Positions 12,513-60,300 of a stretch of DNA of 64,000 nt are shown here, piece by piece. The position numbers and the translations under genes are program-made. The stretch spans positions 744,001-808,000 of the forward strand of contig JAFCMP010000401.1 of the NCBI GenBank assembly GCA_017506865.1, given 5' to 3'. How positions within the stretch are numbered: the stretch's first letter is position 1; the number at the start of each line of letters is the position of its first letter. The notes beneath the pieces are model-generated. The model searched no databases. It was not told the origin of the DNA and saw only the letters and a list, made by a program, of their open reading frames with translations. Source of the stretch: Tribonema minus. Taxonomy: Eukaryota; Sar; Xanthophyceae; Tribonematales; Tribonemataceae.

Positions 12513-15500
12513 CTATTGCTGCGCGGCCTCAGCGTTGCTGCCGCTGCCCTCCACGGCGCGCACGGACCACGCGTGCCGCACGCGCCCGTACTGTATGTCG
12601 CGCAGCGCGTCCCACAGGCGCTGCGCGAAGGGGCCGATGCCGTCGCCGCCGCGCGCGCAGACCAGGTCCTCGCCGCGGTACTCTATCGCGTGGATGGGCG
12701 AGATGACGGCGGCGGTGCCGGTCGCGAAGGCCTCCACGAGGCGCCCCTCACGCGCGGCGTCGCGCAGCTCGCGCATGCCGACGTCGCGCTCGCTCACGGC
12801 GCAGTCGCCCCAGCTGCGCGCGAGGTCGAGCCTGGTGTGTGTGTGGGGGGGGGGGGGGGGGGGGTGAGGGCGTTGGCAACGAGGGCGGAGAGAACAACAC
12901 ACCTCAGAAACTGGTGTTGTTGAAGTATCTGTAAGCTGTTGGTGAGACAACTCGCTCACGACGCAGTCGCCGCAACTGCGCGCGAGGTCGAGCCTGGGGG
13001 GGGGGCGGCGAGGGGGTAGGGGGTAGAGGGGGGGTGGAGGAGGGCGTTGGCAACTAGGGCGGAGAAATCAACACACCGCAGAAACTGGTATTGTTGAAGT
13101 ATTAGTGAGCTGTCGGTGAAATAGCGACGTGTACCAACCAGCGGGACGATGCACACAATGCTGCACGGCTTGTGCAAGTCTCGGATGGCCAGTGATGCCC
13201 CCACCTGCACTGTACGCCGAGTGAACGACCAAACTTGGGATGCCAGGGGGAGGAGTCAATGTACCTTGAACCAAGCATCAGCAAGCATGAGCGAGCCAGA
13301 CCGGCCGACCTTGCACTCGCAGGCATTGCAATGACTTTGGCTCCGACTCTGGCGCTCAAAGCTGTAACTGGCAATGGGGGACAAAGCGGCGGGGGGGGCT
13401 GATCGGCTAGCACAGTGCTCACAGTGCCCACCTGCAGGACGCACTCCATTCCTGAAAGAGTTACTCAACTACGCTTCTCGATGGAAGCCAACACCACAGC
13501 TTGGAAGTGCTTCTAAGTACGTGACAGAAGATGTCACTGCACCTGCAGCAGCAGACCCTGCCATGGCAGCGCTCGGTGCACCTCCAACCTCAAATTTGAA
13601 GTATACAGTTGAAAATGGCCGCAAGGACACTCACACGCTGGCCCGCGTGACGCCCGCCAGTATGTCCCTGCGGTCGAGCGTGGGCGTGACGAGCTCGAGG
13701 CGCGACGGGTCGCGCGCGTCGCGCAGCAGCGCAAAGAAGTTCATGGCGCCGACCTCCGTCACCAGGTCGTCCTCGCCGTACAGCCACAGCACCTGCGCAC
13801 GCGCGGCGGCAGCGGCGGGGGGGGCGCGAGAGAGCGGCGCACTGTGCTGTCAGCGCGCCATCGATATGAGCTGTCTGGCGTGTGCCGCTGCTGCTGCCGT
13901 GCGCGCTGCTGCTGCGCACGCAGGCGTTGACGCTGCGCGTCGCGGCATTCGTGCTCGACACGAGTCTGACGACGCTGGCACGAGTCGAGGCGCGCTGCGG
14001 ATCGCGCGGCGCGCGCGTTGCGAGCATGTAGGTATGAACGCGCTCTGTGATCGGCACAGCATGATCGAGGGAATCCAGCGTCATCACTGGGGGGGGAGGG
14101 GGTACATGAGTGCCAATTGGCAGACCAGTATTCATAACTGTTTTATTGCTAGGAATTTGTCAGCATGAAACTTGCGTACTGCGCTCGTGCCCTTCAGCAG
14201 TTCACTGTTCTGCTGCTGTGGCATACATGGATGACCCACCGAACCAGCCGCCATGGGGTGAATGCATAGTAAGCTCGTGGCTAAAGCAAGGTAGGCAGTG
14301 ATGCAGTGCGCACGTTCTCAGCGGTAATTTCAGATGTGGATACGCGCACACACACAATGTAAGCACTTCGTGCATATAAATGTGTCGAATAAGCGCGAAA
14401 GCTCCAGGCGAAAGCTCCAGGCGACGCCACATGTTTAAAATACCATGAGTTTGCGTCACACTCCATGCTGCCTTTTGCATCAAAATGTCACAGCAAGCTG
14501 CACACGCGCGAGCACCTCAGCGCAGCAGCATGGTCCCCAGAGTGTGAAAACACTCAGGTCAAGGGTGCCTACGACTCGCCATAACTTCTGCTACAAAGCC
14601 CCGTCTGTGCAATCAATGAACTTCAACTTCAACTTCACCTGTGAGCACCCCCGCTTCTGTGCCTCGGCGGCGGGGAAAATGGTGGGTGCGTAGTTGCCGC
14701 CCGTCTTGGTGTACCCTGCGCCCCCCGGCCATGACCGTGTGTACGTGGTGTCGGCATAAAGCTGCGAGGGCACCAAATTGACATCGTGGCGTCAGACGTG
14801 TAGCAGCACAACTAAGAGTTTGAAATGCGTGTGCGTATCATCTGGTGTGTGCTGAACTCCACGGCTGCATAGGTGCGTGCAATGCCGACATGAAGTGGTG
14901 GGGTGACATGGTGATTCTCGATGTCACTATGGTATGCATCACAAGCGGAAAGCGCGCGTGCTACGCGTGCCCCCGCAGCCACCACGCATACGTGGCCTTG
15001 CTGCGCCAGCTGCACAATGACACCGAACGCTTGGTGCATCTTGCATGTGACGCACCGCATGCTGAGCGACGTCACACCACATGACCAAAGTGAGCGGTAG
15101 CTGCGTGCAAGTTGCCTGCGAAATGTTGACGATGCTCAGCGAGAGAGCCATCTGCCACAGCCACAGCAAGCGATGACCGGCACGTGTACCCGGTGTAGGT
15201 CAACCGCTCGACACTCAACCGCTCGACACGTCGGAGCCAACCTCAACTCTGACCCTAGCCCTTGCCCTGCCTCTAGCCATAACCCTAACCCTACATATGC
15301 CAAACGAGCGTGCGCAGGTGCGCACCTTCACGGGCACGAAGCCCTCCTTGTAGTACGGCCCGCACGGGCTCGCGATCACGTAGAGCTTGACGCGGCGCGC
15401 CGGCGCCACCCCAATAGAGGGCATGAAGCACTCCTTGAAGTTCGACTCTGACCATAACCCTAACCCTAAATGAGATGAGCGCGTGCGCGCACCTTGACAG

Positions 15501-17413
15501 GCACGAAGCCCTCCTTGTAGTACGGCCCGCACGGGCTCGCGATCACGTAGAGCTTGACGCGGTGCGCCGGCGCCACCCCAATGGAGGGCATGAAGCACTC
15601 CTTGAAGTTCGACTCTGACCATAACCCTAACCCTAAATGAGATGAGCGCGTGCGCGCACCTTGACAGGCACGAAGCCCTCCTTGTAGTACGGCCCGCACG
15701 GGCTCGCGATCACGTAGAGCTTGACGCGGCGCGCCGGCGCGACCCCAATGGACGGCGTCGTCGAGATCGCCGTCGGCCGCAGGTACAGCGCGTAGCCCTC
15801 GCCGCGCGGCACCCAGTCGGCATCCACGCTCAGCAGCTCGGCGATGAGCGCCTGCAGCTCCGCGGCGTCGAACGTCGGCATGCGCAGGCGCTTGAGCGAC
15901 GCGTTGAAGCGCGCGAGGTTGAGGTCGGGGCGGAAGAGGAGGACGGCGCCGTCGGGCGCAGCGTACGCCTTGAGCCCCTCGAAGGCTCTGCGGGGGGGGG
16001 GGGGCGAGGGGGGGCGGGGGGAAGGGGTGTGGGGGGGGGGGGGGGTAGGGTTGGCTGCGTGGCGCATCGGGCGTCTGAAATGTTGTTTGGTTTGGGAGCA
16101 CAGTGTTGAGCTTACGGAGAATCGCGACGCCTTGGTGGCACTCAGCAGGCCTGCGGCGGAGGTGAGAGTGCGATGGAAGTTTGCTGCGCCAGCCAAACAG
16201 GCTTGTCCACCGTGGCATTGGCGTCATGGTCAGGCACTGGTCCGAACTGTGCACGTTGGAGACCTGACTGAGAATAACAGCTCTGCATGCATCTGCACTG
16301 ACAAGCTCAGATACGGCTTTCCAATTGGCGCCGTTTGGCATTTCCACATATGCCTGAGGACCATCTTGAAATCATGCTCCTAATGATGCAAGAGTGAATT
16401 TCCTGATTGCAAACCTGTTCATCATCCTGCCTATCCAATCGAACATCAACCAGACAGAGAGACAGCGGGCCACCTGCAAACATCAAAACTTGCTGATGGC
16501 ATGCACATGAGTAGCTGTATCGATGCATCAAAAAGGTACTACAACAGCCAGCTGGGTTGTCCACCGCCTGCTGTCCATGACAACATGCATTGTAAGGTCA
16601 CAAGCGCAGAGCGACCGCTTCAAACCAATGGGCAAGCACATAGCAGTCGGTGCAGCTCACAGCAGGCACTTTGCATCTCAACATGACAAGGAAGCCGGAC
16701 CACTCACTCTAGTCCATAGTGCAGCACGGAGGCAGCAGGGCTCAGCTCAAGGTCATGGAAGGGCACGATCTCTGGTGGGTGCCAGCCGGTCTCATCATCC
16801 CAGTCCACCTCGAGCATGTGGTCCGAAAACGTTGCACCTGCACGCGATGCATGAATAGAGAGCCACAGTGAAGCATCAGGCATCGTCGCCGTGTGAGTTC
16901 TTAGGTAACCAAGGAAACCGCCAACGTCTGTCACGTGCGCCTGGATGCAGATGCTGCTGCCGACTATAGCAGCATGCTGCTGTTGACACCAGCAGCATTG
17001 AAGGTCATGCCGGGAAGGCAGCAACAGCATTCAAACCCACACTGGGAAGGCGCAGGCGATGCCCTGCGAAATGCAACTGCAAGCGTCCGCTGCGTCTCAC
17101 CCCAGATCAGCCCCTCCTTGGCGGGCTTCGGTTTCGGCTCCGTGGTGTGCTCTATGCTGAGCTTCGTTGAGTCCAGCGGTGTGAGACCTTGGAAAGGGTC
17201 GTACACATCCTCGAGTGGATCTGTGAAGATGCTGGTGCTCGGTGTGTCCTCCGTCGCTGCTGCTGGCGATTGCCGCTCCTCTGTTGCAGTGGCGCCGCCC
17301 CTGCTGCCAAGAGCCGCCAGCCACCGCCTATCCAGGGGCTTGCACTCCGCTGTGCAAGCCAGCAGCAGCGCAGCCGCAATCAGCTTGGAAACATGTTTTC
17401 CTCGTAAGCGCAT
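12513..17413 (-). CDS. Branched-chain amino-acid aminotransferase
   Basis: Six exons join without phase conflict: 17413-17101, 16837-16708, 15987-15660, 14761-14639, 13792-13635 and 12831-12513, giving 456 residues. The enzyme is a PLP-dependent transaminase that interconverts Leu, Ile or Val with their 2-oxo acids. Family signatures are visible: GATFSDHMLEVDWDD, HYGLEAFEGLKAY, the PLP-lysine region YTKTGGNYAP (Lys at about residue 276), VLWLYGEDDLVTEVGAMN, ELVTPTLDRRDILAGVTRAS and AFATGTAAVISP, ending with the DIQYGR region. An N-terminal extension of about 100 residues opens with a hydrophobic stretch (LIAAALLLACTAEC), suggesting entry into the secretory route, possibly to a complex plastid. 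Introns 3 and 5 contain echoes of the neighbouring exons. The gene is divergent from the synthetase gene to its right. Confidence 0.93.
12832..13115 (-). repeat. Exon-edge echo of BCAT exon 6, 5' border
   Basis: The start of exon 6 with its acceptor is copied about 162 bp upstream in the gene: the real border is at 12831 and the copy at about 12993. Plus-strand words CGCGCGAGGTCGAGCCTGG are identical in both. The intron part is also duplicated, with GGCGTTGGCAAC-AGGGCGGAGA and CAGAAACTGGT-TTGTTGAAGTAT present at 12870-12935 and 13040-13105. Each unit carries its own G-run (a poly-C tract on the sense strand) before the acceptor. Confidence 0.85.
15310..15660 (-). repeat. 167 bp tandem echoes of BCAT exon 3, 3' border
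   Basis: The exon 3 donor at 15660 is repeated at 15493 and 15326, an exact 167 bp period. The copies are nearly identical and encode VKLYVIASPCGPYYKEGF and VPVK followed by GTGCGC, as in the real exon. The 5' part of each copy differs from exon 3: it has a CAG and then SNFKECFMPSIGVAPA, so each unit looks like a complete cassette exon with both splice sites. Between units are telomere-like AACCCTAACCCTAA words. These are the youngest echoes in the window. Confidence 0.92.
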
Positions 17414-17763: not shown

Positions 17764-20700
17764 ATGCCCACGGTCGGGGTGGTGAGGGATGATCTCTTCA
17801 AGGCGCTGGGCAAGGAGTACACTGAGGAGGAGTTTGACGAGCTCTGCTTCGAGTTCGGCATCGAACTGGATGAGGTGACCACGGAGCCAGCGGAGGCCCC
17901 TGGACAGGAGCCCACCATCATATATAAGCTGGACATCCCAGCCAACAGGTAAGGCGCTGTAGCAGCCACTTATATTACCCTTGAATTGTGAACTTGCAGC
18001 AGATCTGATTATAGTAATTTACTCTGCTGCCTTCTGCCTCTACTAGTTGTGGCAAGTCGGACTAGAAGTGGATCATGTTTCAATTGCCGGCTTTAGTGCC
18101 GGCTTTACATGCGAAACAGCAGGGTTGGTGCCATTCTAGAATGTTGTGGGAGCTGAGCTGAAGTTGAACAGAGACCCAGCGCGTGTTGATGCTTCAGTAA
18201 AGAATGCCGGGCTCACAATCAATTGCCTGAATTATACATGTTCAAGCTCAGGTATGTGCAGATCTGATGCAAACCAAGCTGACAGCCGCATGCAGACTGC
18301 AGTTGATTGCGGCAGCACGCGTAGATGTGTTACCAACTGTCAACAGGGGTGTTGCACTGTAGCAGAGGCTCAGAGCCAGATTCAACCAGGGACGAAAGAT
18401 GCACACAAAATGGCCTTTCGGTAGCAAACATCAGCAGGAATACTCCTCGAGTTGTCGTTTCCTCGATGATGCGTTTGATGCCGTGTGCTCCAACTGAGGT
18501 GGGAGTCGCATTGGTCTTGGACTCGAATTCTTGCAGTCCGCAAGTGTCCCAAAGATTGCTTTGAGGTCTGCTGACTGGGCAAAGTGGTGTGCGAGCACGG
18601 CCGCCCACGTAATGCCGTAGCCGCAGCCGTGGTCGCTCCAGGCTGCAGCGCATACATATGGCAGATCGTATAACATCCGATCCAAGAGCCTCAAATCCAG
18701 TTGACGCGTGGCCTTGGATTAATGGCCGGCAAGCTGCTGGTGCATCACTCATCACAAGTTGAGGCTTTCCTCAAGATTTGAAGTTTTCAGTCCCTTCCTG
18801 TGTGTCTCGGTGTGAAAACAATGTGGAAACTCACTGAGACATCTTTTTCAAGTCTCAAAAGATTGGCCAATTTCTGCCAGAGTGTAAGAGCAGCGCTGTT
18901 CTTAGCCTTCGCGGCAGACAGTACCTGGACCACCTGTTCAACATTAGGATATGATGTACGCTGCAAGTGCTGCGAGCCACAGTACTGTGTTGAGGCCTGT
19001 TGTGTCAAAAAGCCCAGTTTCTGCACTTCAACTCTAACTTCTTTCACATTAGCGACAAGCGTGCGGTTGCCAGGCAGTGCTGCATGCAGTGTTCGCTGCA
19101 ATGGTGTGTCGGCAAATCCATTGTCATTCTCACATAGCACTCAAGCACCAGAAAGCAATGCGCTGGAGGCTAGAGCGGTGTTAATTTCAGCACTGCGTGT
19201 ATCGCAGACATCACACAGCACCACCTCTACCACATTTGAAGCACCATCTTAAGATGCACTCAGGCACTACTGCTGCTGCCACAGTGTACAATGATGGACC
19301 ATCACTGATGGTCGAGTTGGCGCAGGTTCTGCAACTTCAAGGCAGCGTGAGGCGCTGTTTCCGGGCGCGCTTGCTCAGCCATCTCCTTCACTAGCACATG
19401 TCAGCTTATAACGCGAGCTCGTACCACAACATATATAGCGGCGATTGCCGTTTGTCAGCCGTGCGTGCCATCCCTGGCACCGTGACCTCGTGCAGGCGCT
19501 GGGCTGTGCACGCCCGCCCTATGCCAGCGCTAGCTAGCGCTGATGCGCTGTGCACAACAAGTCGCTGACGCCTGAGCGCCATGGTCTCGCTTGTGCTGCT
19601 ATCGAACAGTCTGATCGCACTGCAGGGATGTAGGGCTAGGGCCAGCATCAGGGTCAGGAGCAACTGAATCACGGCACTGCAGAGCATGGTTTATTACTGC
19701 GCAACTGGCGGCGCTACCGCCGCCGCCATTGTACGCGCGCTTCATTTTCGGTACCTTGGGGTCTGAAGCTCACGCCTGATGCGTTCCTTCCCTGGCGCCG
19801 AACCTCTTGCCACAATGTGGTTGCTAATGCTCGCTTTTGGTTCTTTACGCTGCGCATCATGGCGCTGCCCCCGTCGCCGCTCCGCGCCGCAGGTTTCATC
19901 TGCTGTGCCTGGCGGGGCTCGCGCGTAATCCTACCCCTAGCTCTGACCGTACCCCTCAGGCACAATGCGCTGTGCTTGGATAAGCGCTTGCACAAGCCTC
20001 GCGCTGACCCCCATTGCAATCGCAAACTGACCGACGCGCAATCGCACCCTGCAGGAACGATCTGCTGCATCCGGAGGGATCCGCGCTTTTTCTAACCCCA
20101 TCAGTCACGGCTCTTGCTGAACGTCACCCCTGCCTAAACTTACCCCAGCCCCAGCTCCAATCCTACCCGGGTGCGATCGTGCTGTGCCTGAAGGGGAAGC
20201 CTGACCCTGATCCTTATCATAACCGCTACTTCTAAAGTACCTGAGAAGTATCACCAAGCATAACCCCACCCAGGCAGATACAATGTGCTGCGCCTGGAAG
20301 AAAACCTTCACTCAGACCCTGACCCTACTACCCCCAACCCTGACACCCCTCTGTACCCCAACTGTACCCCACCTTCCCGTGCAGGTACGACCTGCTGTGC
20401 CTGGAGGGGCTCGCGCGCGCGCTCAACATCTTCCTCGGCCGCGCTTCCCCGCCCGACTTCCGTCTCGTCGAACCGGCCAGCGGGCAGCGTCAGACGATCA
20501 CCGTCAAGCCCTCCACGGCGCAGATCCGGCCGTACGTCGTGTGCGCGGTGCTGCGCGGCGTGACGTTCGACGCGCGCACGTACAAGAGCTTCATCGACCT
20601 GCAGGACAAGCTGCACCAGAACATCTGCCGGCGGCGCACGCTCGTGGCGATCGGGACGCACGACCTCGACACGCTCGAGGGGCCCTTCACGTACGAGGCG

Positions 20701-23700
20701 CTGCCGCCGCAGGATATCGAGTTTGTGCCGCTCGTGCCGTGCGACAGGTGCGTGCGGCTCTGCTCAGGATTGATGTCGGCACTGCTGGTTGTCAAGTTTT
20801 ACGCGAGGCTCTGCTCAGAATTGGGTGTCGGCGCTGCTTGTGGTTAGGTTAGCGGTTACGAGGCGCTGCCCCCGGAGGATATCGAGTTTGTGCCGCTCGT
20901 GCCGTGCGACAGGTGTGTGCGGCCCTGCCCGGGATCTGTCGCAGGGGACCCCTAGGGTTAGGTCAGCGGTTACGAGGCGCTGTCGCCGGACGACATTGAG
21001 TTTGTGCCGCTCGTGCCGTGCGACAGGTACGTCTGCTCTGGATAGGTGTTTGGGGCTGCATAGTGTGGGGCCGCTAATGGTTAGGTCGGCGTTTATGAGG
21101 CGTTAAGTAGCGGTTATGAGGCGCTGCCGCGCGACGACATTGAGTTTGTGCCGCCCGTGCCGTGCGACAGGTGCGTGTGGCCGTGCTGAGGACCTGTTGC
21201 AGGGGCCCCTTAGGTCTAGCTCAGGTATTAGGTTTACAAGGAGTGTCAAGGATTGTGCCGCTCGTGGTGTGCAACAGGTGAGCGCGGCGCCGCTTAGGGC
21301 TAGGTCTAAGGGCCTACTTAGGGTTTGTGTGAGGGCCTAGGTTTCGCTCCAGGGTTAGCGTTGAAAGCAGGCTTGTCCCGTTTTTGGAGTGCGTCAGGTG
21401 TGGGTGCGGCGCCGCTCAAGGTTAGCCGTTGCGGATAGGGTTAGGGTCGTGGTACATGCTGCATTTGCGGCTGGTCACTCGGATGATGGCAGACGCACAT
21501 GGACTGGAAGCACTTCGAGTCACTCGCCATCGTGCCTGGCCTGGCTTACCGTGCTTTGCACCTCAGATGACACTGAGCCATGGATTTCAACCATGTCAGC
21601 CATAGATACCATTTACTTTAGAGTCACTGCGCCTGCACATGACACGGCGCTCGCAGTCCCTTCAGGTCCATCCTGAACCACACCATGACTTCGATTGAAG
21701 TCATGAGAGAGGCTCTTTTCATGTTGGCCGACCCATGTAACTGTAGCCTGCGTTTGCCTCTCAGCGGCGTGCGCAGGGGCGCATTCCATACCGAGGTGCT
21801 GCTGGACCTTTACATTTCGAGTGCATACTTCAATTTGAAGTCATGACAGAGGGGTTCCGATTTGAGCCAACGCATGTACCTGGTGCCGCGAACTTCAACT
21901 CTCAAGTCACGAGAGACCTTCATGTTGGGCCGCCACAAGAAACTGGAGCCTGTGTCTGCCTCTCACGAGATGCGCGCAGAGGCTCATTCAAGTCCAATGC
22001 GCTGGATCTGCACCCTATGTACTTCAATCTGAAATCATGAGAGAGACTTGGTGTTCTTGAGCTGACCGATGTAACTGGTGCTTGCGTCTTTGCTCCACGC
22101 GCCACTTCGCAGGGGCGCCTTCAAGGTCAAGGCGCTGCTCGACCTGTACACTATGTACTTCAAAAATTTGAAGTCTCGAGAGAGACATTTTTTCACGAGC
22201 TGACAGATGTAACAGGTGCCTGTGTCTGCCCTTCGCAGGGGCGCCTTCAAGGCCAAGGCGCTACTGGACCTGTACAACACGGACGTCGCCGTCAAGCACC
22301 TCAAGCCGTACACGGGGATCATCTACGACTCGCCCGTCTACCCCGTCGTGCTAGACGCGCGCCGCACCGTGTGCTCGCTGCCGCCGGTGATCAATGGCTA
22401 CCACAGCCGCATCCAGCAAACGACGCGCAACGTGTTCATCGAGTGCACCGCCACAGATCTGACGAAGGTGAGCGTCGCACAGGTCTGCAGTGGGCTGCGT
22501 AATTGTAGTGTACATGTATTTCCACATTATTATGCACTGCCGCAAGTAATAGTTGCCACCACAGCCGCATCCAGCAGATGGCGTGAACACGTGTTAATCG
22601 AGTGCACCGCGACGGATCTCACAAAGGTCAGCTTTGGTGGGTGCTCTGGTGAAGAAGCGCGCTGTTGAAGTAGACGCGCTGCCGCCGGTGATCAGCCGCT
22701 GCCGCAGCAGCCGATGCAGTGGACGATGTGTGATGTGTTCATTGAGTGCACCGCGACGGACGTCGCAAAGTTCGTCATGTTTGAAGCAAGTAGTTGAAGT
22801 GAAGCACGATGCATCGCGTGCTTGCTGCCCCCGGTGATCAACGGCTACCACAGCCGCATCCAGCTGACGATGCGCAACGTGTTCATCGAGTGCACCGTTG
22901 ACCTGACCAAGGTGAGCGTTGCTGCTACCGTTGAAGCAACATTTGAAGCATGCAGGTGACGATGAATTGCATTTCCAGTTCGTTTTCAACGGCAAGTGCA
23001 CAATGCGCTTGCCGCCACGTGGAAACAGTGGGTTCCGCAATCGCACCCAAGTTGATGCAGTGGTTGGTGTTGAAGCGTGCTGCGCAGGTTGCACCGATGT
23101 GCAGCACGTTCAACTGGTGTTTTACGTCAGTGACGGTAACGTCACTTAGTCTAGAGCAGCGCAGGTGGTGCTCTCGCTGCAGCAATGACGCATGCATGAC
23201 GCTGCAACGCACACCGTTGGTCCTTCTGTCAGCAGCGCCCTGACCACAACACCCCCCCCCCCCCTCGCCCCCCCCCCCCCCTCCCCCCCCCCCCCACCCC
23301 AGGCCAACATCGTCCTGGACACCGTCGTGGCCATGTTCTCGCAGCTGTGCGCGGACCCGTTCACCGCGGAGCCCGTCGACGTCGTCTACGAGGCCACCGG
23401 CAACACCGCAACCACGCCGCTGCTGAGCAGCCGCACGCTCGAAGTCGCCATGGCCGACATTCGCGGCATCCTCGGCGTCGACATGGCGCCCGAGGAGGCG
23501 TGCCGCCTGTGCGCCAAGATGCAGCTCGGCCCCGCGACGGTTACGCAGGGCGGCGCCGCCATCGCCGTCACCGCGCCGCCGACGCGCTCCGACGTGCTGC
23601 ACGCGGTCGACGTCGTGGAGGACGTCGCGATCGCGCACGGCTACAACGCGCTGCCGCTGCGCGCGCCGCGCGCGCACACCGTCGGCGCGCCGCAGCCGCT

Positions 23701-26700
23701 CGCCGCCGTGTGCGACCTGCTGCGCGCCGAGGTCGCGCGCGCAGGCTACGCGGAGCTGCTCACGCACGGGCTCTGCGACAGGCGCGACCTTGTTGCAGTC
23801 GCGCGGTGCGAAGGTGCGCGCAGAAGTTGAAGCTGAAACTCGGGCACATTTTTGCAGGCAAAGATGCACGAGTTGGAGTTTTGATGTTGAAGTTCACAGT
23901 AAGCGTCGGTGCCTGCACGGAGGTCGCGCGCACAGGCGGTGTACGAACAAAGCTGCTCACGCGACAGGTGCGGCCTCGTCGCGGTCGCGCGGTTCGAAGG
24001 TGCGCGGCGGACGTTGAAGTTTTTCATATTGTTTTTCATATTGAAGTTTGTGTGACTGTGGGTTGCACTTGCGTGCACGGCGGCCGCACGTGCGTGGTGC
24101 GCGGAGCTGCTCCCTCACGGCCTGCTGGGCATGACCTCGTCGCAGTTGCAATCGCGCGCTCGGTGTGAAGGTGAGCTCAGGAGTTGCAGTTTGTATGTTG
24201 AAGGCCACATCGTGTTGTTCATGCGTAGGGCGGTCATGCGCAGCGGCTACGCACAGCTCCTTACGGCGCGGGCTTTGCGACAAGCGCGGTCCTCGTTGTA
24301 GTGCAAGGCGCACAGAAGGTAGTTCACAAGTCAGAAGCTGCGGTCGCAGCAGTCACATTCGCGGGCGACTTCTCCATGCTCACATACAGAGCCTGCGCGG
24401 CACGCACGAGCTCATCGTAGTGCAACAGGGTCTCTTGTCCGACTTCACAAGGTGACGTGGAATCCGCTGACTTGAAGGTCGCGCGCGCGGCATGCGCGGC
24501 TTCGCGGAGCTACTCACAGTGTATGCACAAGCATCCCTGCAGCACTCCATCACGTACACATTGGGACCCATCAAGAGTAATCGCGCGCCTACCCGCGCCC
24601 CTCGCGCGACAGGCGGCGAGGAGGGGCCACAGGCCGCAGCGCTGCTCAGCCAGGCGGTCGCTGCCTCATCAGTGGGTGCCACCGTATTCCATGCCGCCCC
24701 ACGCGCAGCATTCAACTAACCCCAAGCTTTGTGCCTTAAATCACGCGCCTCTTCCATCATGTGACAGGGGCGAGGAGGGGCCGCAGCCCGCAGCGCTGCT
24801 GAGGGGCCCATGCACCAGCACCCCTGCACCGCTCCACCATGTACATTGGGACACATCAAGCGTCATCACGCGCGCGCCTCTCGTGCCTACCTCCCTCAAT
24901 GTGACAGGGGGCGAGGAGGGGCCGCAGGCCGCGGCGCTGCTCGGCCAGGCGGTCGCGCTGGGCGACGCCGACTACGAAGTCGTGCGCACGACGCTCCTCC
25001 CCGGCGTCCTCAAGACGCTGCAGCACAACCGCTCGCTGTCCGTCAAGGACGGGCTGCGCCTTTTCGAGGTGCGATGCGCGCGCACGATTCTCTCTGTGAA
25101 TGTATTTAGTTGTTGCTTGATGTGTTGGTGTGGTCAGCACATGGCGCCGCACCGAGCTCTGTGAGCGCGCGTGGTTTGTGCTTGGCGTGCGGGCGTGGTC
25201 AGCGCTCAATATCGCGTCATTGCTCAGCATGCAGGGCCTGCCGTTGCTCAACGCGAGGGCAAATACTTCGAAGTACTTGTTGCTGCTCGGCACGTAGGTA
25301 GGTGTTGAATTGGTCATCACGCAGGGGCCGAGTCGCTGCGCAAATTGCTTGCGCGTTCAGGCATCGCTGAACATGATTGCATCGTCATCATTTTTGAACC
25401 ACCGTGTAGGTGCAGTCATTCCTCAACACGAAGCTGCAGTCATTGCTGAATGCATGGGCAAGCAGTGAGTAAGCAACATCATGTAGGAGCCTCACTGCTC
25501 ACCATGCTCATGGTTCATCCCCGCGTGTGTCGGTTCCTTGCATAGGGACCGGGCTGTCCTGCAATGTGCACTGCAAGACCGTATGCCGGTCCATGTTCTC
25601 ACGTAGTCCGCCATGAGAGGTTTTCAAGGCTCTTCCTCTTTGCCATCACTTGCAGCACTGTTTGTCTGTTGGGCAGATTTAGCTCTCAGCGAGGCTGCCA
25701 TCCTAACATAGCAGATGGTACATCAGCAGAAGCGACTGGGGGATGTCCTGCTGAATGCTGCAGACCAAGTAGCGTCAGCGCTGTTTCGCAAGGGCCCCTA
25801 CTGACTGGTATGCGGTCATCACACAATATGTTTCGACAAATCACTCACAAGCAAGCAGTGACCGCGATGCTCTTGTCACCGACAATTTCCTTGCTGCGTA
25901 AACCACGACGACATAGCCTTTCCCAGCTGCAATGCCATTCCTGACACAACTGACTCAACAACCGCCGTTTCGTTCGTGCTGCGCGTGCGCAGATCAGCGA
26001 CGTGGTGCTGCAAGACCCCACCACCGACACGGGGGCGCGCAACGTGCGGCGCCTGTGCGCGCTTTACACGGGCAACACGGCGGGCTTTGAGATTGTGCAC
26101 GGCCTCGTGGACCGCGTCATGCAGCTGCTGCAGGTGAGTCACAGTTTACTGTCTCGCTGAAGCGTGACGCTCACGCAGTTGTGGGCACTTGATGCAGCTG
26201 CTGCAGGAGACTACTGAAGTCGTCTGCTGGTCACATTGTGAAGGTTGCAGGTATGTTTGATGGGCACGGCGTCTTGGACCGCGTCGAACAGCTGCTGTAG
26301 GGTGATGCTCCGTCTTGTTTGTCGCCATGTCCTTCAGCGCATGACGCGCATGGTCTTGTGCAGGTCATGCGTCACTCCTGTGGAAAATCTCGCTGCTCAA
26401 TCGCCCACACCCTAGGTGCCAGCGCGCTCTGTGACGCAGTGGCAGTGAGGCGCACCATACAACAACACAGCACATACAATGTCACATTCCAATCTGTGCA
26501 TCACCACTTGCACAGCACCTTGTGCTCAACTTGAAGTTCCAATACCCCTCAACTTGAACTCTGATCCCCCTGAGGGCAGGTCGTGCCAGCGGCGTCCTAC
26601 GCCGGCGCGAGCGTGAGCAAGGCCGCGGGCGGCGCCATTGAGGGCGGCCCGTGGCGCGAGGGCCTGGAGTACTTTGTGCGCCCCGTCGACAACCGCACGT

Positions 26701-31700: not shown

Positions 31701-31757
31701 TGCTCTGGTATGCCTCGCCAATGTCTGGGTTGGTTGTTCGCAGATCCATGATGTCCC

Positions 31758-33179: not shown

Positions 33180-33480
33180 CTGTAACACTGCAAAAACAAC
33201 ATCAACGGACACGCTCCGCTCCGCTCCGCGCCCAACCCAGCGCCGCGAGCGTGCAGTGCAGGTGCAGGCACCTCCAAACTTCAACAACAACACCAATCAC
33301 AGCCTCCCTCAGGAGCGTCTGTGCCTCCGCACACACCGTCGAAAAACCACGCCGCGCTCCGCTGCGCGCCTAAGGCGCCTCACGCAGCGCCGCGAGCGCG
33401 CTCGTGCCGAGCGCGTGCACGCCGCGGTGCGCGCGGTTTACGTACAGCACCCCCAAACTGCACCAACAAAACTCAGAGCA
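33180..33480 (-). repeat. Echoes of the terminal exon of the ARM-like gene, beyond its stop codon
   Basis: At least two copies of the 3' part of the last exon, near 33205-33275 and 33345-33450, lie downstream of the stop codon at 33562. Plus-strand words such as CGCTCCGCTGCGCGCCTA, GGCGCCTC-CGCAGCGCCGCG and GCACGCCGCGGTGCGCGCGG are shared with the true exon at 33545-33630. The second copy also duplicates the stop region (GCGCCTAAGGCGCCTC versus GCGCCTACGGCGCCTC). Confidence 0.8.
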
Positions 33481-33561
33481 TGAAGCCTGCCTCACAAGTC
33501 AGGGGAGGAGCATCTCTGCCTGCGCACACTGCCAGAAAAGCCACCGTGCTCCGCTGCGCGC

Positions 33562-36500
33562 CTACGGCGCCTCGCGCAGCGCCGCGAGCGCGCGCGCGCC
33601 GAGCGCCTGCACGCCGCGGTGCGCGCGGTGCAGGTACAGCGCGCGCCGCACCGCCGCCGCGCAGCCGTGCGAGCCGAGCGTGCTGCGCGCGGTGAAGGAG
33701 CTGCGCGCGAGCTGCGCGACGAGGCGGGCCGCCTGCTCCACCAGCGCGGCGTGCTCGAGCTCCTCGGCGAGGACGCGCGCGAGCTGCGGAGGGACCGATT
33801 GACGGCGCAGTTTCAGAAAGTTCAAGTTTGCGACTTGAGTGTGCGACTTGAACAGGTTTAGACTAGGGCTGCGGCGGGCGTTCGGGACTGGCAGCTGTTC
33901 AGAAACTTCAAGTGTGCGGCTGGAACAGCTTTAGACTAGGGCTGCGGCGGGACCGGCCTACGCAAGTCAGAAACTTCAAGTGTGCGTGTTGAACAGGATT
34001 AGACAAGGGCTGCGGCGGGACGGCCGACGGCGCAGTGTGGAAAAACAGGTTTGGACTGGGGGTCCGCCATCACGACGTGGTTGAGATTCTCAGCGAGGAC
34101 GCGCGCAAGAGCTGTGGCAGCGATCATGCAGCAAGTCCAGGTGAGGTCAGGAGTGGACGGCAAGACTCAATAGCGCCGAGTTTGCGCCGCAAGCCCTACG
34201 CAGCACTGTCTACACGCACAGCAGCCGCAGCAGCGCACGCCGATGAATACGGACAGTGCGTAGGTACATTTCATTCTGTGCTGCCGCTCAGATTCAACAA
34301 CCTCCCTCCCCTTCATCCACGTACGCCGCATGCAGCGTGGACTGTTCGATGAAGCGTAGCGCACCTGCTGCAGGCCACCGCGCGCCGCATAGCACTGTCT
34401 CAACGCACAGCAGCCGCAGCGGCGCACGCCCCGCTGAACACGAACCGTGCCAAGGTACATACAAAGCGCACGATTCTGCGCACCTGCTGCAAGCCGCCGC
34501 GCGCCGCGTACTCCTTGCCGGCGCCGGCGCACACCTCCTGCAGCGCGCACACGGCGGCGAGGCAGCGCCACTGCAGCGGCGCGACGCGCGGGTGCTCGCG
34601 CCCCGCGCGCACCGCCAGCTCCGCCAGCCTGCAGTGCACGGCCTCGTCCTCCAGCAGGCGCCACATGGCTGCATCGCTGCTCAGCGGAGCGGCATAGTGT
34701 TGAAGTTGAAGAGAAGTTGTGGGTTGGTTGAGTGCGATGGCTGCGGGGTTGTACTGTCGGGTCGTGTTGGCAAAGCACCTACCGGCGCGCTGCAGCGTGG
34801 TATACGGCGCTCGAGCGCGCTTCGGTACATGCCTACATACCCTGGCACATGTACACACCCTACACAGGCACCCATACATACCATACACCAGCCCCTACAT
34901 ACCTACCGCACGTAAGAGGGCCACCCGCCCCTCCTACACGCGCGCCAAAACAACGTACTGTACCTAGTGCATGCGCACCTGTGAACCAGCAGGCACGCAG
35001 CGTGCACGGCCTGCCACCCCGCCACCAGCACCGGCACGTCCGCGGCGTGCCACTCGAGCGCCTCCGTCACCGCCGCGACCGCGTCGGCAGCGATGAACGC
35101 TGCCGCAGCAGCGCTCGGCGCGGCTGCGCCATCGCTCAGCAGCGCGCGCAGCAGGTGCAGCGCCTCCGCGCACGTGGCGGCGGCGTGCGCTCTGGCGACG
35201 CCGTGCAGGCGCTGCTGCGGCAAGGCGCTGCCATAGCGGAGCAGCGCCGCCGTCGCCAGCTGCGGACGTGCAGCGACAGTGGTGGTGCTCACGTGTTTTA
35301 AGGTTGCCAAACGTGAGGCGCGTGTGTGATGATGGCCCAAAACCGCTGCAGTGCTGTTATGCGGCCTGCTTACCCAGCAACGCCGTCATGGGCTCATCCT
35401 CCAAGCAAAACCGACGTGGGACATGTTTCACCAGCAACTTTTGCGGCCTACGCAAAGGAAATTGTCAAAGAGGATCTGCAGTTGCGTGACGGCCACGTCC
35501 ACACAGTACAGTGCGCTGCTGTCGTACCTACTTCAGTGGTGCTGACGGCTCCTGCAGTCGCATGAGTAAGTAGAGGGCGGTCATTGCCAGTCAGTGGCCG
35601 ACAGCCACTGCCTCGGGCGCACCAGCTTCGCAGCCGCATCAGGTGACACACACACACCAGTTGACAGGGCTGTTGCATGAGCCATTCGACTGCACCTGAG
35701 AAGGGCAAAGCCCGCACACGAGCTTGAGATATAACTGCCGTATGGCTGCTGCAAGTACAGTACCAAGGGCTACGGTGTGCGCCCGCTGCTGTATCAGAAA
35801 CTCGCATGGCGCAAGAACGCAGCTCCAGGACTTTGACACACAGCAAGTGCCGCAGGCAGAGATAGTGTGCCCTTGCTTCAGCAAAACTGACGAGGCTTGC
35901 CAAGAAGTGCTATAGTGCATGCACCACTTGCGTCGGCTGCCTTATACTTATATGCCTCCTGACCTCAGCAAGGGGTCAGCTGGGACCAATCGTCATTCGC
36001 TGTACTTATGTCCATCACAAGCCCTCTCAACATATTCAGCCTTGAGTTTGGTTCGTCTGGGGACCTGCACGCCAACTTCACAATCCCATTATCCACACCG
36101 CCAAACTATACGTGACACTTCAAGTCAGCGAACACGCGCAGTGCCCACCTGCACGCACAGGTGGGCAGGCGCGTGCGGCCGCAGCCCCGGCGCGCGCAGC
36201 GCTCTCAGCCCCGCCGACTGGACGCCAGCGCTGCGCGGCCACGCCTCAAGCGCTCCTGTCACCGCTGCCGCCAGCACTCGCTGTTCGTCCACACACGTGA
36301 TGATTGTCGGAGGGCAAGAGCAGGTGCGCTGCGCACCAGAACAGGCCAGCTCCACAAGCGTTTCTGTGTGTGATGTAGAGATGACGCCTGCGAGGGCCAT
36401 AAGGGCGCCCGCCGCTGCGAACGCCGCCGCCGCTGCCGCCGCCGCCGCTGCGTCCGCCGCGCATGCTGCGCTCACGTGCGCCAGCACGCGCAGCGCAGCC

Positions 36501-48292: not shown

Positions 48293-48328
<36 letters not shown>

Positions 48329-51300
48329 CCCGCTGTCGGCGATGCAGGTTTGGCACCTGGCGCCGCCGCTGCCGCTGCGCTGCCGCCGCCGCCGGCGAGC
48401 GCCGCGATGCGTGCGCGCGCGTCGGACAGGTTGCCGAGCTGCGGGCCCTTGCTGGCGGCGGCGGCGGCGGCGCTGGCGACGTTGGCCGTCATGTCGCCCA
48501 TGCCGTCAATCGTGAGCGCCTGCGCGAGGCGCACGGCGGGCGCGTCGAGGCGCAGCAGCGCTCGGCTGCGCTGCGTCTCCGCGAGGAGGTCCGCGTCGTA
48601 GTTCTTGAAGGCCGTGAGCAGGTCCTCCTCCACCTGCGCGCATGTGGAATGCGGTGTTGAGGTTGAGGCCGACGCAGGTGTACATGGCGCGCTGCCACGT
48701 GATGGGTGATTGAAATGGAAGCGGACGACGGAGCTTGGCATGCGAGACGCATTGAAAGCGTGAAGTGCTGGTGCAGCGACGCTTGGCTAGTCAAGTACGC
48801 AGCCCCAGTGTCCGCACCCACTTCAACCGCCGCCTACTTCTGCCTGTGACGCACCTACCTTGCACTTGGGCGCGCGCAGGTACTCCGAGTCCTGCAGATG
48901 CGCGTCGCGGTACGCAACTACACCGACTTCAAATGCCGCCAACTTCCGCCAGTGACGCACCTTGCACTCGGGCGCGCGCAGGTACTCCGAGTCCTGCAGG
49001 TGCGCGTCGCGGTACGCGGCGTCGGCGGCGACGTAGTCGCCGCGCGCGAGCAGCACCACCGCCTCCGTCAGGAACAGGCGGTGCAGCGTGTGCGTCGCGC
49101 GCTCGCTCTCCAGGAAGATGCAGTAGCGGCGCAGCACGTGGAGCGCGTCGTCGAGGCGGCGCGCGCCCAGCAGGAAGCGCAGCGCCGCGTCGAGCGTCTC
49201 GCGCGCGCCCACGATCTTGATGAAGTCCGTCGTGTACGGGTTCACGCCCTCGGGGATCATGGCGTCGGCTGCGGCCCTGCGAGGCGGGGGAGTAGGGGGA
49301 TCGACGGGGGGGGGGGTTTAGGGTTTGGTGAAAATGGGGTTGTGGTGCGTGTTGCCATAGGCTGTGGAAACTCACGCGTGCCCATGATCTTGATGAAACA
49401 CATGGTGTATGGATTGACACCCTATGAACTCATGGCGTCGGCGGGGGGCGGCTTTGTGGTTGGTGGTGAATGTTTGGGGGGCAGAAAGATCGTTTCTTGT
49501 GAAAGAGTGGGGGGTCAGCAGTGTGTCCGTGTACTGGATGGGAAGCGCAGGGCACACTTGTTTGGGCACACAGTATTCAAGAAGCCTGACATCAGGTGAA
49601 TGTCTATAGGGATCGTGGAGGCCGCAGCAGCCGTATTTTGCCACATGCATTCAGCGGAGGGATGAGGGGCAAGCACTAAGTCCATGGTGATGGTTAGGGG
49701 GTTGGAGTCAGAGTCAGGGGTAGAGTCAGGGCCATTACCAAGGTTTGTGTGGCAGCGTAAACACCGCCAGCGCTGCCGTTTCGCAGGCAGATTGACGTTT
49801 TTTCTGCTCCGACTGATGCGCACTGCGCGACAGCCTAAATCAACTACAGCAGCACATGAGACACGAGGGACTGGCCGCTCCTCGCCTGTCCTTTTTTGGA
49901 GGAGGAAGCGCGTCTGTCGCCTAACCCTGGCCTCAAAACTAACCTCACACCTAAGCATCCCTCCGTGCAACCTGCAGCTGCGCCGTGTTCGATCCTCTCG
50001 CACTTCCAGACTCAAGTTATGTCCATTCCAGGTGATGCGCACTGCGTGACAGCCTTACTCAATTACAGCAACACAGCTACAATGGGCCTGGCTCCTCCTA
50101 GCCTTTCCTGTCCTGTCAAGTCTGGCCTCACAACTGCCCTCATGCCTCAACATCCCATCAGGCAAACCTCAACTGCCTGCAGCTGCGTTGTGTTCAATCC
50201 TCTTGCACTTCAAGGCACACGTCTTCAGATGTGTGCCCGTGTGCAGCTCACGCACTACGTCTCAGGTGCTCACTGCAACTCCTCCTGTGCTCACTTGACC
50301 ACAATCTGTATTCCTCCTGTTCTCACTTGTACTCCTCCGCGGCCCTTCCTCATCAATGCCCTCCAGCACCTGCGCCGCCTTCCTGCTGCTGCTCACTTGT
50401 ACTCATCCTGTACTCGCTTGTATCGTTCTGCACATGCTGTATTCGCTTGCCCTCGCTTCTCCTGCGCTTGGCGTGCACTCCTCCGTACTCGTCATCCATC
50501 CATCCTGTTCTCACTTTGTACTCCTTCGTACTCATCATGAACTCACTTGTACTCCTCCGCGGCCCTGTCCTCGTCAATGCCCTCCAGCACCTGCGCGGCC
50601 TTCCCCAGGTACTCCCCGGCCTTCCCGGGCTCCGCGCCGTTCATCCACGACGTCGCCGCCGCTTTGAACATCTGCACACAATCAGTTGAAGAAGGCAGCG
50701 CTCAGCACATTCAGTCCAGAAGCTGTTGAGTGTGCTCGCAGCTGCGACTGTCGGGTGATGGAAGCTCGCAGACCACGCATCATCGCTCAGCCGCGCAGCG
50801 CTGCAGCACGCACCACGAGCGGTGGCGCCCCTGGCATGACCAGACTCACGGCGTACGAACCTCAACGGCCTTGGTGTCCGCGCGGCACGTGAGCGCGAGC
50901 TGCGCGGCCTCGCACTCGCGTACATACCACGCATCACCGCTCAGCTGCGCAGCGCTCAGCGCACATGACCAGACTCATGGCGTACGAACCTCGACCGCCT
51001 TGGCGTCCGCGCGGCACGTGAGCGCGAGCTGCGCGGCCTCGCGGTAGTCGCGCGCGGCGAGCGGCCACGCCGCGTTCTCGTCTTGGCACTCCCCCGCCTG
51101 CGCGTACGCCATGAGCGCCGCCTCCTCCTGGCCGCACGCGCGGTACGCCGCCGCCGCGCGCTCAAACAGCGGCGCCGCCGCGAAGAAGTCGCACGTCCAC
51201 TGCTTCCACGTCTTGGTGATGAGCTTCGCCGCCGCGGCGCGCGCCTCGTCCGCCTCGCGCCGCTGCTGCTGGTGGCGCTCCTGCGCCGCCGCGGACTGCG

Positions 51301-51380: not shown

Positions 51381-51419
51381 CTGCGGCGGCGGCGGCGGCA
51401 TGTGGCAGCAGGTTGTGGG

Positions 51420-53508
51420 CACCAATGAGCAGGAATTTAGTGATTCAGGTCACGAGGCTGGTTGGTAAAGTCAGACTGCTTGTTGCAGCCAGGTTTTCTT
51501 GTGTGGTGCAGCAAGGCGGTTTTCTTGTGTGGTGCAGCAAGGCGCGCGTGAGGGCAGAGGCGCAGTTGAGCTGTGCGGCGGTTGCGGGAGCGATGCTGCA
51601 GCTGGCAAGTGCGCTCGCCGCCATAAAGTATAATGATGAGGTGGCCAGACGGTAAGCATGAAACCTTCGAAATGCAACAATGACCTCAAGTAAGCGCACA
51701 TGAAGAAGCCAAAAAACATGCAACGAGCGATTATTGCCGCGACCTCAGTATCCACAGAACTGGGCAGTCGTGAAGGGCTCAAACGGGATGCGGTATGACC
51801 TCAACACCTTGAATCCAGGGCATCTGTGCCTTGGCACAGCCGTGTCAGCTATCAAGAAAATGGTAGCACGCATATGCTGCGATGCTTGTCTAGTCTCAAC
51901 ATTGACCCGTCATTGTGTGCAAGGCAGGAGCATACAGTCAGACACCTGTTCGGAAGTGCCAATGATGAACATTGGTCCGCTGCCGAGGATGCACCACTAC
52001 CACCAACACAGATCCAGTCAGCCACGCACCGAGCAGTTGCTGGAGTTGGTGCTGCGGGTCTAGCAGCACCAGCGCCTGGCTTCGCTGCTCCCTTCCCTGA
52101 GCTGCCGAACAGCTCATTTTTCTCCTGTGCGTGCATGACGCTCCGCAGCAGGCAGATCGCTCAGCTTTGTGTGCCGTTTCGGGCAACTTCAACTCCAGAA
52201 AATTATGAACTTCAACTCTGGTACTTGGGGAAAAGGAAAAAACACACCCCAAACAATTCATCAACTCTGTAAAGGTCGACAGTCGACTGCATGACAGAAG
52301 GTCCTCTCATGACTGCAGTTTTCCAGGAGCGAGAACATCTGGTGAAGCCGGACAATCTCTGCATGAAACAGGACCCTCAGCTGGACAACCTTTGCATGAC
52401 ACCATGACGCAGTACTCTGGTCTCTGGAGCGAGAACATATAGTCACCTCGACCAGCGCTCAGCTGGTTGACTTGTTACAACATAATGTGTGGCAAGAGTC
52501 CTGGTTGCAGCCCTGAAACACCACGGTTGCGAACACAGAAATTTCTGGTCTAACTACCTGGTCGTGCATCTGCCATGGTGGCATGGTAAGCCGGTTGCAT
52601 GCACTTGCATGGATCATATGATGATGATGATATGTTGCAGGAAGAGGTTACACATCATCTCTGTCAGATGCACTTGACAGCAGCATCCACTTCTCCATGT
52701 GTTCGGTGGACCAAGCGGGATCAAGGCATGTGCGTGGACATGCACAGTTGCCAGCCGCAATCAAACTGCATATTTGGGGGCTGCTGAAAGCTGAACGGAA
52801 TGAGCTGAAGTAGTAGCAGTAGTAGGAGAGTAGGTAGTGTGTTGGTATTGGTTGCTGAAGAACAACAAGCTGTCACAATTTGCGTATTTAAAGCTGCATG
52901 TACAAGTGCTCGTGCTGCATCGATATATCATGACGCAATAGTGTGCATATATTGTTGCTTGTGCACAGCCACGTAGTGCATGATCACCAAAACGCGCTTG
53001 ACGGCGTATCAAGTGCTGGCTGTGTTCTCAAAGGTTCCAGGGCCACGCCTAGCTAAAGGCAGCAACACTGCTGTCGCGCTTGCAGCTGGCTGCATAAATG
53101 ATGTCAGCCCTCGCTGCCAGCTACCAGACCACACATCAGCTCTGCGAGTTCATCTTCGCGCCACGCGGTGAGCGGCTGGCGGCGGCCCCGGCAATCATCA
53201 TCGGTTGTGTTGCATCGGTTATGTTGTGGCCAGCAACGCCGACCCTAAACTCTCTCCGTTCTCCATAGCTTGCGGTGACGCGAGGAGAATAACTCCTGAG
53301 CTGAGACTTCTGATCGGTCACGGCGGTTTTCGCGTCAGCAAAAATGCTCCGTTCTTTCACGCAAAACTTCACCTTCAACCGTGGCCTTCGTGACGTTGGC
53401 CAAATGCCGCCCTGCGCATGCAATTGGACAAACTCCGCTTTCAGATGCACCCTGCAGCAGACATGCACATCATCGCTCGTCTCCGTGTTTGCGCAGTGCT
53501 GCAGAACG
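51420..53508. other. Intergenic region, no gene seen
   Basis: This is the spacer between the divergent gamma-SNAP and methyltransferase genes. It may hold the missing first exon of gamma-SNAP. A near-exact direct repeat GTTTTCTTGTGTGGTGCAGC lies at about 51491 and 51519. No protein-like exon is visible. CTTCAACT words occur near 52190 and 52210. Confidence 0.4.
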
Positions 53509-57307: not shown

Positions 57308-60300
57308 TCAGGATGTGCGGCCCTGCCCCCGTCGCCGCACGCGTGTGGCGCCGCCGTTGGACTGCTCTTTCTGCGCCTGCGCGGCGCGCGCGCGCGCGTC
57401 GGCGGCGCTGCCGCAGCGGCCCAGCGTGTGCGCCGTCGCCGCCGAGGGCGCGGCGCCGCTGCTGCTGCTGCGCTGCGCAGTCTCCGTTTGCGACACCTGT
57501 GCGCAGAGCGCGTGAGTGGCGGTGCCAACGCGACACACGTGAGTACATGGACACGTGCTGCAACTAGTGAAGCGTGAGCAACTCCATGTGCGGAACGAGC
57601 GGCCCAGGTTGGCAAGCGACGCAGCAAAAGTACTGTTGATGGGCAGCAGCTGATGTGGCCGTTCGCCTCTACCTCATGTGCAACAGGGCACTTGTATTGC
57701 AGCATGCGCTCATGTCAGCGCGTGCATGATTGAAGACTCACCGCTGAAGGGTTCAAGGTCTGCAGCGCAGCTCGGCGCACCACCCGCTTCGCGCCTGCCG
57801 GCAGCCTGGCCTCCGCCGCCTGCCGCGCAGATCGCCCCGTTGCCGCCGCCGCTGCAGCTGCAGACGAAACCGGCGCTGCGCCATGGTCCACATGTCGGTG
57901 GGCCAGTGCATTGCTTGCGCCATCACTGTAGCGATCGCCATAGCCACCAGCATCAATTACGCCACCACCGCCGCCGCTGCCGTTGCCCTCATCATATCTA
58001 CCATCGTCCGCCGCTGTCGCGAAGCCGTTGCCGTCGTGCCACTCGTACACCTCCTCGACATACTGCTGCCGCTGCGCAGGCGGCGACGGCGGCGGCGGCG
58101 CGTCCGCAGCGCTGCCGCCCCACTCGCGCGACGCGCGCAGCGACGGCGCGAGCGACGACGCGTTGCTGCGCGGCACGATGTTGGCAGCGGCGGCGGCGCG
58201 AGCATCGTCGAGCATCGCTGCGGCGGTGGCGGCGGCGACGGCCTCTTGCGCGGCGGCGAGGGCGTCTCTGAGCTCTGCCGCGGCGCCGCGCTCGCGCTCC
58301 AGCTGCATGCGCGCGCGCGAGGCGTGCTGCTCCAGCTCGGCCTGGTCGGCAGCGCCACGAGAGGAGTATTTGTTTAGTCACTGGAGGGTTGCTGTACAGT
58401 ACCATTGGCATGAAGTGAAATAAAGGTGATGCGCTTCCACGCAGGAAGTGTTGTCATCACGGTGGGGCCAAGCATCCTGACACTGTTTTGACATCACCCA
58501 AACCGTTAATTGCATCGAAATACATGAGGCATGTCCTGAGACCAGTCACCTCTCCCCCTCATCCTCCGAGCTGAGCAGCCGCTCTTCACTGCCATGAAGC
58601 AGGGTTAGTTCACTAAGTAAACCAACATGACCCGAACACTTACCCCAAGCCCTACCTCATGCTAACCCTAGGCACTCCTCATCTGGTCACTCACCCTCTT
58701 GTCCTCTGAGCTGAGCAGCCGCTTGCGTGTCTCCGCCAGGGACTTGGACAGCATGTCGCGCTCCTGGATCACCTCAGCCAGCTGCGCATCCAGGAACGCC
58801 GCCTGCAGCACAATTGAGGCGTTGGTCAAATGTAATCGTGTTGAAGAGTGACGCACAGGACCTGAGGATTACTTTAGGTGAGGGTTGCCATCAGGGTGAA
58901 AGGAGTTACAGTTAGGGTTGGGGATAGCATGTCACGTCAGCGAAGCTCCCACATCAACATCATGTATGCACGATGTACACATTTGCAGCCCGCATGAAGT
59001 GCTCCTTCTTGCAGGTACCGACCGTCAACACGACGCACACACCGAATGATCATCAAAGAGCCTTCGTGCGCTGAAGCGCCTCATCCCTCTGTGCTTGCGC
59101 CACTGCACCACACCCTATACATACATCAGTACATACATGCATACCTTGTGCTTGTACGCGCTGCGCTCCGCGTGCAGGCGCGCGCGCGACGCCTCCAGCC
59201 TCACTATCCGCGCCTCCATCTCCACCATTGCGCGTGAGGCCGCCATCTTGGCGTGCGCAGTCTCGCGCCGCGCCGCGTCCGCCTCCGCCTGCAGCTCCGC
59301 CATGCGCGCGGCGCTTGCTGGCGCGGCGGCGGCACTGCTGAGGGAAAATACATGTGGTGATGCAGTCATTTAGATGCATTGTGTTTCTGTGGACAGGCTC
59401 TCGATGTGGCCGTGGGAGAACGCGGTGCGCCTCTGGCAGTGAGGGTCAGAGGTGGCTGAAGGAGGATGATTCTCGTGCGTCGTTGTCTGCATGCCAGCTC
59501 ACGCGCGCAACCAAGGGGCGTATGCGGCGACGTGGCGAGCTGTTGCGCACCAGGTTGCCCGCTCCTGACACAACATGTTTGGTTTGACGCCGCCACCACC
59601 ATCTGAGTTGCACAATCACAGCCACCATGCACCGTTTAAAACGCACCCTACGCACACACACACGCAGATATGCACACACTACACAGACGCACTCCCTCAC
59701 AAACCCGTGCACTCCGCACGCAACGCAAGCATGCATTCGCACAGACAACTCGCCCGTTGGGCGTGCTGCCGCCGTCCAGCAGTGCCAACCCGCCGCCGCC
59801 GCTGCCGCCGCCGCCGTCGCTGCGCGCAAGCCGCTGCAGCAGCGCTCGCCCGCTGCCCCGCACTTGCAGCCCCTCAGCATCAAACGAAACCTCCTCCACG
59901 CGCGTCTGCGCATCGTGCCCGCCGCGCCCGCCGCCGCCGCCGCTGCCGCCGCCGCCGCCAGCGTAGCTGCTGCTGATGCCATTGCCCCAAGGAGCCGCCA
60001 GGCCCGTCAGGCGCGCATTCTCTGCGAGCAGTTCGCGCAGCGCCTGCGAGTCGCCCGCCTCGGAGGCGGCGGCGGCGGCGCTGGCGGCGGCAGCGAGCTC
60101 GTCGATCTGCAGCTGCGCGCTCTGCTGCTGCGCGGCGCATGCAGCAAAGGCGTCGTCGCGCTCTGCGCGCGCCTGCGGTGGCGGCAGCCAATGAGATTAA
60201 GTTGCCAAGGTCAATTGTGATGCCCAAATGCGCGAAGTTGAACGCGCTGGAGTGCAGCGTGTGCGAGATGTCATGGGCGTGCGCAGCAAACCCATTTGGA

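Follow-up and report, generated by a model that had tools for sequence, protein, structure and literature searches.

Exon edges repeated in adjacent introns

The window studied here, a stretch of 64,000 nucleotides from the xanthophyte Tribonema minus (contig JAFCMP010000401.1, positions 744,001 to 808,000), holds genes for an aminotransferase, PheRS-beta, gamma-SNAP, an ARM-like protein and a coiled-coil protein. The methyltransferase at 53494-54597 agrees with an NCBI T. minus protein at 100% identity over 92% of the query. In many introns of this species the edge of the adjoining exon recurs in decaying tandem copies, which we call echoes. The first-pass annotation of the window described them in at least six genes and proposed to compare the window with itself; this comparison returned 40 local direct-repeat pairs with offsets of 73-1376 (37 pairs in a first run), and the echoes are real. 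In 32 of the 40 pairs one copy or both overlap a predicted exon, although the predictor itself calls some echoes exons, and echoes stand at 10 of the 19 predicted-exon edges tested in the aminotransferase, gamma-SNAP, ARM-like, RING-like and coiled-coil genes. They occur, as described, at donor and acceptor borders and on both strands (aminotransferase on the minus strand, PheRS-beta on the plus strand). Five of the six named genes carry them, weakly in the case of the coiled-coil gene. For RING-CH no echo was found: the only RING-like motif found by a pattern scan (8652-8747, minus strand) lies outside the part of the window to which the echoes had been assigned and has no echo at either edge.

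PheRS-beta was identified from Pfam matches and named homologues, and its six exons, all on the plus strand, were placed with P0106, a transcriptome-derived EukProt protein. Exon 1 (17764..17949, beginning MPTVGV) is 100% identical to it over residues 1-62 by tblastn. Exon 2 (20385..20747, 98%), whose open reading frame scores 26.7 bits against Pfam PhetRS_B1 (cut-off 26.8), has four downstream copies of its final 37-56 bases together with the donor site, at 20857..20912 (96% over 56 bp, offset 165), 20971..21026 (91%, offset 279), 21115..21170 (86%, offset 423) and 21241..21277 (84% over 37 bp, offset 530). Echoes of the acceptor border of exon 3 come next (21777..22161, offsets 462 and 126). 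Exon 3 itself (22239..22467; Pfam B3_4 on the open reading frame) precedes three echoes of its end (22537..22911; offsets 159, 303 and 444; 82, 78 and 88%), and exon 4 (23303..23813, 98%; Pfam B5 on the open reading frame) is followed by echoes of its end at 23920..24318 (offsets 186, 357 and 505), with two short or weak matches farther on. Two echoes of the acceptor border of exon 5 (24608..24803, offsets 295 and 141) lie ahead of that exon (24908..25068). No echo was found in the intron that follows it (25069-25992), and the end of exon 6 (25993..26133) is echoed at 26261-26301.

The most recent echoes seen belong to the aminotransferase gene, which we take to be BCAT-like and whose exons were recognised by reading frame. 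The donor border of the exon at 15660..15987 (minus strand) is repeated twice at 15326..15589, with 97% and 95% identity over 97 exon bases. The array consists of a 167-bp unit present 2.6 times (97% matches), each unit comprising 97 bases of exon and about 70 of intron, and of the three copies it is the outermost that forms the true end of the exon. The acceptor border of the last exon (12568..12831, minus strand) has an echo at 12951..13119 (offset 162, 82% overall). In the gamma-SNAP gene, named after the NCBI T. minus protein P0226 and also on the minus strand, echoes of the donor border at 48961 (48815..48915, in frame in the NCBI model), of the acceptor border at 49276 (49371..49442) and of the donor borders of the exons at 50547-50671 (50283..50383) and 50990-51380 (50769..50913) were found. 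The presumably ARM-like gene (33311..34510, minus strand) shows echoes of both edges of the predicted exon 33566-33783 and of the end of the predicted exon 34484-34676, together with a tandem array confined to the intron (33838-34029). The weak echo of the coiled-coil gene (58545..58583, 39 bp, 85%, minus strand) copies the donor border of the predicted exon 58695-58802.

The copies had been described as progressively decayed away from the exon. This fits 36 comparisons, in which the nearer copy is the more similar one, but not 18 others in which it is less similar, nor two ties; between nearest and farthest copies the nearest is more similar in 12 families and less so in four (p = 0.077). Rising decay is thus a tendency, in line with repeated duplication out from the border, though with exceptions.

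Sampled introns and the question of a border preference

The pattern had also been suspected to be a general property of the genome, and it is not confined to the window. From the assembly (158 Mb, 554 contigs) we drew 18 further loci with 45 introns, which were delimited by exon-by-exon profile matches to kinesins and aldehyde dehydrogenases and accepted when the flanking matches were continuous in the profile. Splice sites refined the borders of 42 introns, and the other three were left at the profile ends. No gene finder was used: a self-trained one, which mistakes echoes for exons, was for this reason rejected as the basis of the statistics, and it was kept for placing the edges of the window genes. 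One donor, at locus L042, is misplaced in the family and unit data and was corrected by hand for the border ratio, the decay analysis and the comparison of own with other introns. An adjacent-edge echo is present in 17 of the 45 introns, the criterion being a score beyond the 99th percentile of a background of 3,788 comparisons, made with edges from other loci; in 10 introns the score exceeds all 3,788. The proposed alignment of flanking edges to introns, run on this sample, gave the expected excess of adjacent over non-adjacent matches: 60-base edges matched their own intron in 23 of 90 cases and the reverse complement in 1 of 90, whereas none of 172 comparisons with the gene's other introns gave a match. 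Two loci, L045 and L054, had been chosen with doubled profile matches already noticed (0/2 and 2/2 introns with echoes), and the remainder gives 15/41; three introns added later had no echo, making 17/48 overall. In kinase loci L005 and L016 repeat pairs lie where the kinase match ends, and at least one pair occurs in 10 of the 27 kinase loci examined (L008, L010 and L020 of 30 being omitted), not all of them in genes.

Adjacent direct copies of a local segment, the mark of tandem duplication, form 37 families in the 45 introns: 12 straddle the donor, 14 straddle the acceptor and 11 lie entirely within the intron. The claim that the duplicated unit always straddles a border is therefore wrong. 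At least one family is present in 25 introns and a straddling one in 19. The smallest offset per family has a median of 127 bp (10th-90th percentile 92-249), and families make up 24% of intron bases. Introns with families are longer than those without (median 937 versus 592 bp, Mann-Whitney p = 0.0018), which is no proof of cause because longer introns give families more room. The suggestion that tandem duplication, an established model for intron birth, here lengthens introns fits these data: tandem copies and longer introns are what they show, lengthening rather than birth, and echo-bearing introns are taken to be older than their echoes.

The frequency of straddling families might be thought to require a process directed at the border, in which features of the junction (nucleosome edges, R-loops or AGGT motifs) cause breaks or slippage there. 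Windows on the border match nearby sequence at a raw rate of 0.256 (n=90), against 0.142 for interior windows (n=779), a ratio of 1.79 (1.06-2.68); straddling families number 26 of 37 where uniform placement predicts 8.8-16.5; and in a few recent cases the homology reaches only about 8-20 bp into the intron. Yet border echoes are easier to detect, because selection preserves an exon copy whereas two intron copies both decay. Of 23 border echoes, only 11 would still be detected from their first 60 intron bases without the exon part. Once this frozen-exon effect is corrected, the ratio falls to 0.86 (0.42-1.22, bootstrap over loci), and with de-duplicated intron lengths the corrected expectation rises to 23.2 of 37 straddling families (P = 0.22). 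The 11 intron-only families also speak against a border-directed process, as does the clean aminotransferase unit with its long intron portion. Nearby sequence is matched (threshold 20) by 14 of 45 donor-centred windows, by 14 of 45 acceptor-centred ones and by 5 of 164 windows that lie in exons over 90 bp away from a border. A border-specific mechanism is not required, since geometry and survivorship can account for the impression of straddling, and we consider it unlikely. The notion that breakpoints fall exactly at splice sites, raised by a few cases, was not upheld.

Decay and splicing of the copies

Echoes could instead be functional, as alternative exons or spare splice sites under selection, and the first-pass annotation saw in them a supply of alternative splice sites. 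Several do keep their frame and splice dinucleotides, the gene finder called some of them exons, and the NCBI gamma-SNAP model P0226 holds one in frame: over window positions 48815-49017 it reads through one donor site and one echo, and the peptide AYRDAHLQDSEYLRAP appears twice. Judged from its sequence, this model would reflect either occasional use of an echo or mis-annotation. The decay of the copies tells against selection. In 62 exon-echo alignments mismatches amount to 0.106, 0.108 and 0.187 at codon positions 1, 2 and 3, a third-position ratio of 1.75, where about 2 is expected for a neutral echo compared with an exon whose changes fall mostly at third positions, and 39 gaps in the alignments shift the frame. 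Of 35 donor copies 30 retain GT (27.5 expected), and of 20 acceptor copies 15 retain AG (14.8 expected). The echoes look like sequences decaying neutrally, with no special retention of splice sites.

The PheRS-beta transcript-derived protein agrees. When the six exons were joined without echoes, P0106 was 98% identical to the product over 570 residues, apparently from a close relative, and continuous at all five junctions except for a 3-residue gap in a glycine-serine stretch. Four of the five introns hold echoes, and P0106 contains none of them; these echoes are spliced out, because the protein runs continuously across the introns that hold them. For PheRS-beta, former exon sequence is now intronic and removed by splicing, as seen through this 98%-identical protein. 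The view of echoes as maintained splice sites thus finds no support in either line of evidence, and we regard functional echoes as improbable. Nor do the copies resemble whole-exon duplications in alternative use; they appear to be partial exon ends undergoing neutral decay.

Introners or other transposons, dispersed elements that create or fill introns, are a very improbable source. They are known in 5% of the species searched, according to the available part of PMC9860276, and (TTAGGG)n repeats are common to several T. minus introns. But exon edges match the adjacent intron and none of the other introns of the same gene, and the aminotransferase array, in a genome search that ignores very common words, matches only itself. 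Comparison of 51 introns gave 18 short matches between genes, and those identified are telomere-type repeats; similar copies in introns of unrelated genes were not found among these introns beyond this telomere-type sharing. An assembly artefact of collapsed or mis-joined reads has just as little to recommend it: the assembly does hold contig pairs about 95-98% alike, but the copies are mostly 3-30% divergent, edges are missing from non-adjacent introns (0/172), and divergence graded with codon structure makes such an origin unlikely.

The telomere-type repeats have a distribution of their own. They are strongly enriched in introns: at loci L040-L057, introns totalling 40,170 bases contain 105 (TTAGGG)n octamers, spread over 18 of the 45, and 20,607 exon bases contain none; loci L032-L039 (80 kb) have none either. 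The G-rich strand reads in the sense of the transcript in 77 cases, against 28, and repeats of this type are also present at window positions 15458 and 15625. A tie between the duplications and these repeats was considered and rejected, 13 of 38 repeat clusters lying in duplicated segments when 10.9 are expected; on average the clusters are farther from breakpoints than random positions (mean 248 versus 99 bp; median 110). The 7-mer ACTTCAA/TTGAAGT occurs 125 times in the window and L040-L057 together (8.5 expected), with 46 copies in 40 kb of intron versus 6 in 20.6 kb of exon. Separately, window positions 41284-41979 contain nested inverted repeats with arms of 47-72 nt that are 75-77% complementary.

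Origin of the echoes and known systems

Overall, our results are best explained by frequent and largely position-blind tandem duplication of segments some 90-250 bp long, with selection on exons as the filter, a reading to which we give a probability of roughly three in four. Small tandem duplications would arise often and more or less anywhere. Those within exons would be purged, while those within an intron or across one of its borders would be tolerated, border duplications being harmless because splicing removes the added copy. On the donor side the upstream 5' splice site, the original one, would stay in use after a duplication, and on the acceptor side the original 3' splice site downstream, the outer site presumably being chosen every time. 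The extra piece of exon would then remain in the intron, lose selection and decay, and repeated events would build arrays and lengthen introns. The mutations may come, by analogy, from the repair of staggered breaks or nicks, through Pol alpha-primase/CST fill-in or polymerase theta. The process looks border-specific because copies that contain exon sequence, one of them frozen by selection, stay recognisable longest.

Several observations weigh against this reading. Introns with echoes are concentrated in certain genes (permutation p = 0.0022), and windows on gene-poor contigs have fewer nearby-copy matches than intron-interior windows (19/262 versus 108/777); a uniform rate predicts neither, though the sequences differ in age. 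At present intron lengths the corrected expectation is 14.6 straddling families of 37, well below the 26 observed (P = 0.0001), which leaves some likelihood of a border bias, and interior windows include copies from border families, which lowers the corrected ratio and favours the answer of no bias. At L055 the intron part of the nearest copy matches poorly, some recent pairs thus not being plain contiguous units, and the order of copies does not strictly follow age. P0106 shares one residue with PheRS-beta echo 1 (E) rather than with the window exon (Q), which reads as if that exon had changed after the duplication. Finally, no polymorphic intron duplication was caught in comparisons of the contig pairs C90/C179 and C144/C223.

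These pairs look like unmerged haplotypes or recent duplicates. C90 and C179 (L032-L035 versus L036-L039, 40 kb each) are gene-poor and about 95% alike, and 7 of their 13 indels of at least 15 bp adjoin a close match, some in satellite-like arrays; tandem change is therefore ongoing in this genome. C144 and C223 (L060 versus L061) are 95-98% alike over their first 5.5 kb, where no tandem indel reaches 15 bp, and align poorly beyond. A third pair, C65/C533, was rejected as alleles on comparison.

If position-blind duplication filtered by selection is correct, intron lengthening becomes measurable as a process of mutation and selection. In each echo a neutral copy could be compared with an exon edge under constraint, giving the age, rate and size of duplications gene by gene, the exons serving as frozen references for dating each event. 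More tentatively, T. minus, or xanthophytes more widely, may have an unusually high, gene-clustered rate of duplications of about 90-250 bp in transcribed DNA, with repeated border crossing as a main route of intron growth and perhaps some remaining preference for splice borders. There is also a warning for annotation, since a gene finder takes echoes for exons when they are in frame and carry splice signals, and one echo stands in a public protein model.

Some features of these introns are familiar from other systems. Like introners, as presented in the available part of PMC9860276, they would represent a lineage-specific change of introns on a genome scale; introners are dispersed, whereas no dispersed family was found in T. 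minus, and the name Tribonema is absent from that text. The small tandem duplications produced by break repair in mouse and human cells, where the accessible portion of PMC8355091 has overhangs down to 43 bp sufficing, belong to the same class of mutation, short tandem duplications. The T. minus units are mostly 90-250 bp, and their origin by repair would rest on analogy with those mammalian cells. Titles and abstract openings, in a search that most subscription papers lay outside, report this density of echoes for no genome.

The closest precedents concern intron gain. The tandem genomic duplication model, set out with its counts in PMC3443670 and credited there and in PMC4974935, as far as their available text goes, to Rogers 1989, Hellsten 2011, and Gao and Lynch 2009, likewise has a local duplication yield splice sites and intron sequence derived from coding sequence. 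In the model an AGGT-bearing exonic segment is duplicated and gives an intron, whereas in T. minus the unit includes a splice border of an existing one. In the potato RdRp gene, a tandem duplication across an intron-exon border is described as one event of intron gain (PMC4974935, in the part available), and there too the exonic part of one copy turns intronic. That case is a single event that made a new intron, whereas T. minus has dozens of families in existing introns and an echo in 17 of 45. With a single border-crossing case already in print, it is the density of such duplications that is unusual in T. minus.

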